A DNA stretch of 64,000 nucleotides from Rufibacter roseolus. Its GTDB lineage: Bacteria; Bacteroidota; Bacteroidia; Cytophagales; Hymenobacteraceae. Below the pieces are notes generated by a model, which searched no databases, was not told the DNA's origin, and was given only the letters and a program-made list of their open reading frames with translations. The DNA lies in the NCBI RefSeq assembly GCF_017916365.1, contig NZ_JAFMSU010000001.1, positions 1,054,001 through 1,118,000 on the forward strand, written 5' to 3'. The position numbers and the translations under genes were made by a program. Positions 27,113 through 37,310 of this stretch are shown here, piece by piece (position 1 is the first letter of the stretch; the number at the start of each line of letters is the position of its first letter).

Positions 27113-27182
27113 TCAGTTCAGAATCAGGGATGAAATATCTGAAACTACGGCAACAAGCGCCTAATTGTTGATTTTTTGAAGG

Positions 27183-27446
27183 AATGAGCGATTTTGGGAA
27201 TGAATGATGTATTGAATGAATGAGAGATTGAGTGATTGGAAATGGAAAGATGATTGATGGTGCTACCGGAGTAATCCAAGGTTGGCAGGTGCCACTTGTT
27301 TACTGGTAATTTGTTTTGGGCCTGTTTTTAGGAAATCATGCTCAATTCATCCTCCATTCAGACATCATTCAATCACTCATTGAAACCATCCCCCATTCAG
27401 ACATTCACTCAATCTCTCAATCTCAATCTCTCAATCACTCATTGAA
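27183..27446. repeat. Low-complexity TCATTC/CACTCA inverted repeat region
   Basis: The left side carries GAATGAATGAGAGATTGAGT; the right side carries the complement-type words AATCACTCATTGAAA and CTCAATCTCTCAATC repeated several times. It fills the gap between the YihY and DUF4403 genes and reaches the last codons of the latter. Confidence 0.6.
27312..27346. repeat. P1 dispersed palindrome
   Basis: TGTTTTGGGCCTGTTTTTAG then GAAATCATGCTCAA; embedded in the low-complexity region. Confidence 0.55.
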
Positions 27447-34775: not shown

Positions 34776-35693
34776 ATGCAGGAAAAACTAGTGAGGATTG
34801 GCGTCTTCTATGACGGCAATTACTTCTTGCAGGTCAGTAATTACTATGCCTACGGCCATCAGCGCAAACGCAGGATTAGTATTTCTGGCCTCCATGAATT
34901 TATCAGGGAACAAGTGGCCGAGGAAGAGGACGTGGACCCACGTTTCTGTAGAATCGTAGACGCCCACTATTTCCGGGGCCGGCTCAATGCCTATGAGGCC
35001 AGCCAACGCGGCGACACCCTGTACTGGGACCGTGTGTTTGATGACATCCTTATGTCTGAGGGCGTGACTACCCATTACCTGCCGGTGCGGACAACGCCGG
35101 AGGGGTACAAGCAGGAACGCGGCATAGACGTATGGCTGGCGCTGGAAGCCTTTGAACAGGCTTTCTACAAACGGTTCGATGTACTGGTGCTCATCTCCTC
35201 AGACGGGGATTACGTGCCCATGGTACGCAAGGTGAACACCCTGGGAACCCGCGTGATGGCGCTTACCTGGGAGTTTGAGTACACCACAGACAACGGCCAG
35301 CGGATGACAACCCGCCCGTCGCAGGATCTGTTGGCCGAGGTAACCTATCCCATGGCGATGCACGGCATTATTGACCAGCGCATTGCCCGCAACGATGCCA
35401 CCATCCAGCGGTTGTTCGTACAGCCAGACCAGAAGCGGAGCACCGCCTCCCATGGCCACGACGAGGACTATGGAGACTCTATCGGAAACATTAGCGGGCA
35501 CGGCGAAGGAGAGATCATGAGCCTCAAAAACGGGTACGGTTTCATCAAGTTCCCGCCCAACAACCTGTTCTTCCACTTCACCAACGTGGTGGACACAGAT
35601 TTCAATGAGCTGCACGTAGGCGACCGCGTGGAGTTCGAGATTGAGAAAGATGATGAAGGCAACGACGTGGCCAAAAGCGTCAAACTTCTCTAG
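34776..35693 (+). CDS. NYN-domain ribonuclease fused to a cold-shock RNA-binding domain
   Basis: A 305-residue cytosolic protein. Residues ~5-200 form a NYN (PIN-like, DUF88/LabA) nuclease domain. Its acidic metal-site residues are present: D13 in FYDGNYF, D118 in GIDVWLALEAF, and D143/D145 in LISSDGDYVP. Residues ~243-305 are a cold-shock OB-fold with RNP1 KNGYGFIKF (251-259) and RNP2 LFFHFT (264-269). A polar linker (~215-242) joins them. NYN domains cleave RNA and cold-shock domains bind single-stranded RNA, so an RNA-processing enzyme is expected; the target is unknown. The stop codon is the base of the first of four identical-loop hairpins, suggesting the protein may act on its own mRNA. 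Confidence 0.88.
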   Translation: MQEKLVRIGVFYDGNYFLQVSNYYAYGHQRKRRISISGLHEFIREQVAEEEDVDPRFCRIVDAHYFRGRLNAYEASQRGDTLYWDRVFDDILMSEGVTTHYLPVRTTPEGYKQERGIDVWLALEAFEQAFYKRFDVLVLISSDGDYVPMVRKVNTLGTRVMALTWEFEYTTDNGQRMTTRPSQDLLAEVTYPMAMHGIIDQRIARNDATIQRLFVQPDQKRSTASHGHDEDYGDSIGNISGHGEGEIMSLKNGYGFIKFPPNNLFFHFTNVVDTDFNELHVGDRVEFEIEKDDEGNDVAKSVKLL

Positions 35694-35868
35694 CAGCCTG
35701 ACTAACTGCCATAGAAGAACCATTCATGGGCGGCCTGACTAGCCCCCGTTGGATAAAAAAGCTCAAACGGCCTGACTAGCCTTTTTGGGTATGAGTGTTC
35801 AATACAGCCTGACTAGCTGTTTTTGAAAGATTGAAGAGAGGCGTGACAAAGTCTTTTTAAGACAAAAC
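35691..35868 (+). ncRNA. Tandem array of four CUGACUA-loop stem-loops (3' UTR RNA, new motif)
   Basis: The 7-mer CTGACTA occurs at 35698, 35735, 35772 and 35809, an exact 37-base period. Each copy is the loop of a small hairpin whose stem differs: GCAG/CTGC (unit 1, including the last base of the NYN stop codon), GGC/GCC plus GG/CC (unit 2), GGC/GCC plus AAA/TTT (unit 3), and ACAGC/GCTGT (unit 4). Fixed loop with compensating stems implies selection on RNA structure. The 24 or so bases between units are not conserved. A degenerate fifth unit (GCGTGACAAAG) follows at 35841, then GTCTTTTTAAGAC and a terminator. The likely form is the 3' UTR of the NYN-CSD mRNA or an RNA processed from it. Confidence 0.7.
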
Positions 35869-35886
35869 AACAAAGACAAAAATACT

Positions 35887-35916
35887 AAAGGGGGAGCCGG
35901 ACAGCTCCCCCTTTTT
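35887..35916. terminator. Bidirectional terminator after the hairpin array
   Basis: AAAGGGGGAGC / GCTCCCCCTTT with a 6-base loop and a T-run on the + strand. It ends the NYN-array transcript and can also serve the convergent esterase gene. Confidence 0.8.
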
Positions 35917-35950: not shown

Positions 35951-35985
35951 GGTTTGGGGCTGATTTCTGAAAACGGGCCTAAAGC
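35951..35985. repeat. P1 dispersed palindrome
   Basis: GGTTTGGGGCTGATTTCTGA then AAACGGGCCTAAAGC; overlaps the stop codon of the esterase-like gene. Confidence 0.65.
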
Positions 35986-37310
35986 GGGTTAAGGGCGGTG
36001 GTCTGGTCTATGAACAGGAAAGCGTCATAGCGGCGGGGCAGGACCGTGGGCACGTAATTGCCTGCCTCCGATGCCGGGTTATACACCACGCCAATAGCCC
36101 TATGGCCGCGCCGCTGGAGCGCTTCGGGGATGTCCTGCAGCTCGCGCATGAGCAGGAGTTTGTCCTCGGCGCTATACCGGTGCAGGATATCTTCCCAGCT
36201 GTTGTTCATGGCGGCCGGCACGTTCATGACCCTGGTAGCGGCACCCCACATAGAAGACGCCACTACCTGCCCCTGGTAAGACCCGAAGCCCACCAAATAC
36301 ACTCCCTGGGCGGCGTGCTGCTCCCGTATCAATTGCCCTATGTTCACCATGCCACTGGTAGCCATGTCTGTGAAGCGTGCATCACCTACGTGCGTGTTAT
36401 GGGCCCAGATAACGATCTTAGCTCCGTTTCCCCTATGGGCTACCAGACGGTTCACGGTCTCCTGCATGTGGCGGTCGCGCACGTTCCAGGAACCTGTGCT
36501 GCTCCGGATCATCTGGGTGTAGTACCGTTCCGCGTTCACGGCTACCAGGGCGTTCTGCTCGGCGTTAAAGGCGGCCTCATGGTTGGCGGGCTGCCTGGAC
36601 CGGTAGGCCTGTACTGCCTCCAGCAGGGCCTGCATTTGCTGCGCACAGGAGGTGCCCTGCGCGGTGGCCTGGGCATACAGTTGCTCATCCCGGTTGTAAG
36701 GCTCCAGGCAGATCTGGGCATTACGGGCCAGTTGGGCAATGGCGGGGTCTGCCGTCTCCATATAAGCGCGTACCTCCTCCAGTGATTCCCACATGCTGTA
36801 GACGTCCATGCCGTAGAAACCCACCTTCTGGTTCTGGGCTAATGATTGGTTGTTTTGCCAGAGCCACTCAGAGAAGGTGGCTACCTCTTGGTTCGCCCAC
36901 ATCCAGGTAGGCCACCGCTGAAAGGCCTGCACTGCCTGCTGTGCGGTGCCGCCCGTCTGTCCCTGGATGTACTGGTTCAAAGAATAGGCGGCCGGCCAAT
37001 CACCCTCCACTGCAATGAGGTTAAATCCCTTCTCCTGAATAAGTCTTTTGGTGATGTTGGCTCGCCAGGTGTAGAATTCAGAGGTACCATGGGAGGCTTC
37101 CCCAATCAATACGTACTGGCTGTTACCTATCTCATTGATCAGGATGTCCAGGTCACCTACGTCCTCCAGCGGGTAAACCCCTTTGGTGAGGAAACCCTGT
37201 TCCTGCTCTATCTGGTCTAGTGTGTCATTGTCTGAGGAGCAGGAGTAGAGCCATCCGCTTAACAGAAAGACCCACACCAGCCGTAATTTTCCCATGTTCA
37301 ATTTCCGCAT
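35979..37310 (-). CDS. Erythromycin esterase family lipoprotein
   Basis: A 443-residue protein of the erythromycin-esterase/EreA-like superfamily. The N-terminus carries a lipoprotein signal (LVWVFLLSGWLYSC, cysteine at 24); the second ATG (37295) is an alternative start. Family motifs are VLIGEASHGTSEFYTWRANI near residue 70 with the histidine proposed as catalytic base, LIAVEGDWPAAYSLNQYI, and IVIWAHNTHVGDAR. True Ere enzymes hydrolyse macrolide lactones in the cytosol; a lipid-anchored member with this sequence more likely has another substrate, so resistance should not be assumed. It stands alone. Confidence 0.85.
   Translation of the reverse strand: MRKLNMGKLRLVWVFLLSGWLYSCSSDNDTLDQIEQEQGFLTKGVYPLEDVGDLDILINEIGNSQYVLIGEASHGTSEFYTWRANITKRLIQEKGFNLIAVEGDWPAAYSLNQYIQGQTGGTAQQAVQAFQRWPTWMWANQEVATFSEWLWQNNQSLAQNQKVGFYGMDVYSMWESLEEVRAYMETADPAIAQLARNAQICLEPYNRDEQLYAQATAQGTSCAQQMQALLEAVQAYRSRQPANHEAAFNAEQNALVAVNAERYYTQMIRSSTGSWNVRDRHMQETVNRLVAHRGNGAKIVIWAHNTHVGDARFTDMATSGMVNIGQLIREQHAAQGVYLVGFGSYQGQVVASSMWGAATRVMNVPAAMNNSWEDILHRYSAEDKLLLMRELQDIPEALQRRGHRAIGVVYNPASEAGNYVPTVLPRRYDAFLFIDQTTALNPL

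Follow-up and report, generated by a model that had tools for sequence, protein, structure and literature searches.

Introduction

In type III toxin-antitoxin systems, a nuclease gene is accompanied by an array of RNA repeats (about 36 nt long in ToxI), which lies upstream of the nuclease gene and is obligatory with it. The locus described here resembles these systems in that an array of RNA repeats of similar length stands beside a nuclease gene, but here the array lies downstream, its copies have diverged in sequence, and it is missing beside most relatives of the nuclease. Another parallel is offered by CsrA/RsmA and the CsrB-type RNAs, where small hairpins with a fixed loop are found in mRNA leaders and extra copies are carried by a second, potentially titrating RNA. 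CsrA/RsmA sites are reported to present GGA in the hairpin loop (PMC7652899), whereas the loop here is CUGACUA or one of its variants and not a GGA loop; in contrast to CsrB, the extra copies here reside in the 3′ UTR of a protein-coding mRNA. ANTAR antiterminator targets are also tandem small hairpins with conserved loop residues within a leader; they are reported to be hexaloops with A1 and G4, placed upstream of an intrinsic terminator (PMC3369931), whereas the loop here has seven nucleotides, with G at position 3 and A at position 4.

The stretch of 64,000 nucleotides analysed here as a whole (the window) carries a tandem array of such hairpins after a gene for a protein with an NYN nuclease domain and a cold-shock domain (NYN-CSD). 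Judged by protein identity, the window is part of a Rufibacter-type genome (genus g1), because the NYN-CSD protein is 86-96% identical to its named relatives, which are from Rufibacter species and from Sabulibacter ruber. The initial annotation knew of no described motif with this loop. At gathering score Rfam 15 gave no match in the window, where the array region had sub-threshold matches only, nor in six further loci tested, of which five include porin leaders. No publication on a CUGACUA hairpin motif was found in a literature search of open-licence papers.

The array and its host gene

The features of the locus are collected in Table 1. The NYN-CSD protein matches the Pfam families NYN (3.5e-14) and CSD (6.5e-11), and its acidic residues D13, D143 and D145 are invariant among 15 aligned homologues. 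The array follows directly 3′ of its open reading frame, and stem 1 starts with the G of the TAG stop codon (35691-35693). On the plus strand CTGACTA begins at 35698, 35735, 35772 and 35809, with an exact period of 37 bases. A scan of the window for 7-mers with four copies at a single period between 8 and 80 bases gave only three, which overlap and all belong to this array, and no set of this kind arose in 40 order-1 Markov windows; the total count of CTGACTA in the window is not unusual (7 on both strands, 5.7 expected). In its own genome, the exact 11-mer GCCTGACTAGC is confined to the array, with three matches. Folding recovers the four stems, each with a bulge or small internal loop. The initial annotation is confirmed on the four copies, their period, their stems and the use of the last stop-codon base by the first of them.

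Table 1. Features of the NYN-CSD locus (positions in the window; z, folding z-score of the single hairpin)
Feature	Position	Strand	Remarks
NYN-CSD protein gene, 305 aa	34776..35693	+	NYN nuclease domain and C-terminal cold-shock domain
Hairpin copy 1, loop C-CUGACUA-A	35689..35715	+	5′ arm overlaps stop TAG; z -0.70
Hairpin copy 2, loop CUGACUA	35726..35749	+	one unpaired C in 5′ arm; z -0.91
Hairpin copy 3, loop CUGACUA	35763..35788	+	small internal loop; z -0.13
Hairpin copy 4, loop CUGACUA	35800..35825	+	z -2.65
Fifth hairpin, loop GUGACAAA	35835..35858	+	z -2.46; in 6/16 genus genomes
Terminator-like inverted repeat	35887..35914		between NYN-CSD and convergent gene; terminator scan

The 221-nt array stretch of the window folds no better than its shuffles (z -0.11); the array of a relative, L006, folds into exactly four hairpins with z -2.05. 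All four window copies are matched by the covariance model R2 (E 2.9e-7 to 1.3e-4), in whose training set they are included. The fifth hairpin shares UGAC and is possibly a diverged member of the array. A terminator had also been placed after the array: a terminator-like stem is indeed there and by reading also finishes in T5 on the plus strand, but the scan reports it on the minus strand only. The upstream sequence of the NYN-CSD gene, as read, contains no TTAACA-type repeat. The convergent gene beyond the stem (35979-37310, minus strand) encodes a distant relative of the erythromycin-esterase family, far under the curated cut-offs. Elsewhere in the window, short imperfect tandem repeats cluster at 27170-27441.

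Among the 16 genomes of genus g1, 11 carry between one and four copies after the NYN-CSD gene (L001-L016: 4, 4, 4, 1, 2, 4, 1, 1, 2, 3, 0, 1, 0, 0, 0 and 0, counts that take in the variants CCCGACTA, TCTGACTA and CCTGACTC). In all 11 the first copy is at the stop codon, and the spacing from copy to copy is mostly 37, also 31, 35, 38 or 40. The gene stands without the array in the other 5 genomes, and the array is absent beside all 86 homologues examined outside the genus (72 of them from the best 80 of 404), two of which have one weak hairpin. The g1 protein is up to 71% identical to homologues of other Bacteroidota families and only 50-55% identical to those of g5 and g6, which belong to its own family; because identity is higher to the other families, the sequences suggest that g1 acquired the gene horizontally.

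Covariation of the stems

The 27 3′-UTR hairpins of L001-L012 (alignment A1) were gathered by the loop alone, two near-matches in L013, CCTGATTA and CTTGACTG, being left out. In A1, 87.0% of cells are paired, five of the six stem pairs have at least one double change, and double-change cells number 36, where shuffles give 11.6 and slid controls no more than 16; RNAalifold predicted the same six pairs. Nineteen leader hairpins from the second type of site described below (A2; 17 from g3, one from g4 and one from g1), for which loop and a minimal stem score were used, have 88.0% of cells paired and 32 double-change cells (9.8 shuffled). In 24 leader hairpins of g1, g2 and g4 (A4), most also gathered with a minimal stem score, the values are 73.2% and 54 (25.3 shuffled). 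Model R2 is based on 46 hairpins (A3); the porin hairpin of G011 is counted in both A2/A3 and A4. Slid controls were all lower on paired fraction, double-change cells and covariation score in A1, A2 and A4. Double changes occur at all seven pairs of A4, including the one that closes the loop (G:C 7, U:A 6, unpaired 11), and shuffles reach seven also. The number of pairs with double changes is not clearly above shuffles (as high in 312 of 500 for A1 and 475 of 500 for A4), nor is the number of pair types (162 and 38 of 500). The aligned hairpins are related to one another, and tandem copies do not count as independent.

The stems differ yet stay paired, with compensatory changes across relatives in A1 and A3. 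The hairpin has a stem of about 4-7 bp and an apical CUGACUA loop, which is closed by a covarying pair or by a C.A or C.C mismatch; over 70 rows the closing position is not a standard pair in 38. Every alignment was gathered with the loop as search key, which makes the invariance of the loop there partly a product of construction; its constancy is shown by the recurring copies rather than by the alignments. Among the leaders the variants CAGACUA, UAGACUA, UUGACUA, GUGACUA and UUAGACUA all retain GACUA. On comparative grounds, the hairpins are a real and evolutionarily maintained RNA element. Read on the sense strand, wobbles are in excess (34 G.U against 19 A.C cells in the same 70 rows, a few of them repeats), and because G.U exceeds A.C and the leader copies are oriented in sense, we favour sense RNA as the working form.

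A second site in the leaders of Porin_O_P genes

Within the genus, covariance model R1 matched the NYN-CSD 3′ UTR in 11 of the 16 genomes and one weak site in G011 (L143), which is a porin leader too. In 120 genomes of the family it also matched in genus g3 and in one g4 genome; on inspection these proved to be 5′ leader sites of genes that Pfam classes as Porin_O_P, on the same strand and 3′ of TTAACA repeats, which we take to be Pho boxes. Weaker family matches of R1 were rejected as chance-like, lying within ORFs or lacking a hairpin. The leader hairpin also follows a -10-like element resembling TTATTTTG, and most of the leaders displayed have T-rich TTTG -10-like elements.

The R2 search found leader hairpins in 24 of the 50 g3 genomes, which, being found by the model, form no unbiased sample; two CTGACTA-type copies 36-53 nt apart are present in 8 of these 24 leaders. 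In the other 26, which are the remainder of g3 and include some with weak model matches not inspected before, a porin query gave 22 close orthologues (65-87% identity), two distant ones and two genomes without a match; a hairpin with the GACTA core is found in 19 of the 22 orthologue leaders, with CTGACTA in 14. Taken over the Pho-type porin leaders of g1 to g4, the GACTA-core hairpin occurs in sense in 41 of 45 (g3 19/22, g1 15/16, g2 and g4 5/5, a second Pho-type g1 porin 2/2), a count that includes L375 and L382, in which it is far upstream and possibly a chance match, and the CTGACTA hairpin occurs in 34 of 45. In antisense it appears in one of the 45; the means for shuffled leaders add up to about 2.2 of 45. 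The g1 exception, in G006, has CCTGACTC and TAGACTG variants by eye. The hairpin is found in none of the 24 leaders of other intact Porin_O_P genes (0/7 in g3, 0/11 in g1 and 0/6 in g2, g4 and g6), there is none in leader L280, and it is likewise missing from the five leaders of the best Porin_O_P genes of g5 and g6. The gene fragment L396, which has one GGGACTA hairpin, was kept out of the 24. Of the 45 hairpin-type leaders, 42 contain TTAACA, so that Pho-box-like repeats are the usual upstream neighbour of the hairpin; because the hexamer also occurs where the hairpin is lacking (at 8 of the 24 other porins and in 3 of the 5 g5/g6 leaders), the hairpin is not merely a component of the Pho box.

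In the genome of the window, the hairpin is in the leader (L214) of the porin at G000:C1:1627112-1628137 (minus strand), 3′ of a Pho-box-like repeat (L242), and the next gene after the porin is PstS-like (PF12849). Among the 10 exact Pho boxes read in this genome, the porin's box is the sole one followed by the hairpin; there is none at the gene after box L241, by eye a PiT-type transporter. A consensus scan of this one leader found no terminator. The genome contains 165 YCYGACTA sites including the array, and among the 85 read, the porin leader is, apart from the array, the only one that is both intergenic, as judged by ORFs of at least 100 aa, and provided with a good stem.

The hairpin-bearing porin probably serves phosphate uptake. 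A PF07396 gene of Flavobacterium johnsoniae lies in the PhoBR operon, yet is described as uninduced by phosphate depletion (PMC8115612), and a phosphate response should for this reason be assumed with caution.

Two further features of the leaders were observed. In L198, L368, L381, L383 and L384 there is a strong-stem hairpin with loop UUAGACUA or GUAGACUA, in several cases alongside a CTGACTA hairpin. Many Pho-type porins of g1 and g3 (e.g., L214 and L134) have a stretch TTCTCACC at or shortly before the start codon, which also precedes the PiT-like gene (L241) of the window's own genome and is possibly a second element of translational control.

What might read the hairpin

In the initial annotation, the array was interpreted as a platform that the NYN-CSD protein itself binds or cleaves, either in autoregulation through the hairpins of its own 3′ UTR or as a processed RNA that titrates the protein. 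Several components of this proposal stand, namely the RNA array, the compensatory changes and the CsrA-like arrangement, in which several hairpins share a loop motif. The array adjoins the gene and begins at its stop codon in 11 of 16 g1 genomes, and the protein unites a nuclease with a nucleic-acid-binding domain and has conserved acidic residues. Its role as the reader, however, agrees poorly with its distribution. The NYN-CSD protein is found in 16/16 genomes of g1, 5/5 of g5 and 4/4 of g6 (one as two matched stretches), but in 0/2 of g2, 0/5 of g4 and 0/50 of g3, the same query returning family matches at 50% identity as the positive control for g3. The leader hairpin occurs in g1, in 2/2 genomes of g2, in g3 and in 3/3 g4 genomes with the porin, yet in none of the five g5/g6 leaders, even though 9/9 genomes there have the protein. 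Among the genera tested, the two co-occur in g1 alone, the one genus in which the array, too, was found, and 5 of the 16 g1 genomes have the protein without it. Because the hairpin occurs in g2-g4 without a detectable NYN-CSD protein, and g5 and g6 have the protein without the leader hairpin, the protein is, judging from these genomes, unlikely to be a general reader of the hairpin; its control of its own mRNA through the array we also regard as unlikely. Because the two coexist only in g1, it would rather be another factor that reads the hairpin, the NYN-CSD mRNA having been drawn into its range.

Improbable, too, is a loop that serves as the kissing site of a small RNA with UAGUCAG. A 7-nt loop motif on dispersed targets would suit such a partner, and small RNAs are common in regulons of the Pho type. 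However, no intergenic antiloop hairpin was seen among the 85 of 165 own-genome sites read, TAGTCAG is found neither around NYN-CSD in 16 genomes nor in 10 porin regions (shorter 6-mers of it occur at three scattered places around NYN-CSD and one in the porin regions), and the variants CAGACUA, UAGACUA and GUGACUA preserve GACUA while departing from the motif in the 5′ half of the loop.

There is also a rather small chance that the hairpins are passive elements of mRNA stability or processing, which protect the 5′ and 3′ ends or serve as an RNase site and need no dedicated regulator. Their position, close to the beginning of the one mRNA and to the end of the other, is consistent with this, as is the terminator-like stem 3′ of the array, but plain stabilising stems have no need of a shared 7-nt loop, and the other intact porins lack the hairpin in their leaders. 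A DNA-level element (recombination site, phage or mobile repeat), to which tandem repeats with a period of 37 bp, or about 3.5 helical turns, might point, is very improbable in view of the sense orientation in the leaders, the occurrence of the own-genome sites read in two genomic contexts, the compensated stems with their excess of G.U over A.C, and the lack of any tandem non-coding copy in the viral-contig matches inspected. We give scarcely any credence to a mimic of the anticodon arm, with a stem of 5 bp, a loop of 7 nt and U at 33, that a tRNA-binding protein would recognise: loop size and the C-U-G-A-C-U-A layout resemble the geometry of an anticodon loop, but there is a pyrimidine at 37, the variant CAGACUA has A at 33, and the closing position is so often not a standard pair.

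A proposed loop-specific site shared by two mRNAs

For this motif, which covaries, is oriented in sense and is associated with one type of porin and with the NYN-CSD 3′ UTR, we propose, with a probability of about 0.6, that it is a loop-specific site for a putative trans-acting factor, placed both in the porin leader and in the Rufibacter NYN-CSD 3′ UTR. The factor would most likely be an RNA-binding protein; the two sites occupy opposite ends of their mRNAs, and a single factor for both is our assumption. The wider and presumably ancestral home of the hairpin would be the Porin_O_P 5′ leader behind the Pho-box-like repeats in g1-g4, where the factor may alter the stability or translation of the porin mRNA. 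In Rufibacter (g1), the NYN-CSD 3′ UTR would have acquired such a site, which then multiplied; the first copy incorporates the stop codon. The array may make the NYN-CSD mRNA a second target, whose decay or translation the factor controls; alternatively, this 3′ UTR, with up to four sites, may act as a decoy that titrates the factor off the porin leader. As copy 1 contains the stop codon, a terminating ribosome would be expected to unfold it, copies 2-4 lying beyond. More tentatively, the two sites might belong to a new post-transcriptional regulon, in which a dedicated loop-specific regulator governs high-affinity phosphate uptake and the Rufibacter nuclease 3′ UTR is its sponge, coupled to translation by the stop-codon hairpin.

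Strongly covarying and not represented in Rfam 15, the hairpin is a structured RNA element that links two types of genes. To our knowledge, few RNA regulators are known in this phylum, and the hairpin is a ready bait for the discovery of one. If titration is true, the 3′ UTR of a messenger would be acting as the sponge of a regulator.

Matches in other genera, mobile DNA and the order

The model matches inspected in g5 and g6 were mostly within ORFs or without a hairpin and were set aside; three (L159, L201 and L202) are intergenic, with weak stems and no adjoining porin. In viral contigs, the 45 loci with exact 15-16-mers gave no cluster of CTGACTA hairpins; three single matches are outside ORFs, and the sole contig with two matches (L417) was rejected as a coding repeat. 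Plasmids gave short weak matches only. A search across 291 genomes of the order gave 25 places outside the family, 20 of which were inspected: 13 are hairpins within or antisense to ORFs, 6 are without a hairpin, and one is intergenic. At this last site (L194, position 1511, minus strand, family f2), a strong TCTGACTA hairpin precedes a lipoprotein-like ORF by 30 bases; it may be a chance match or a further leader site.
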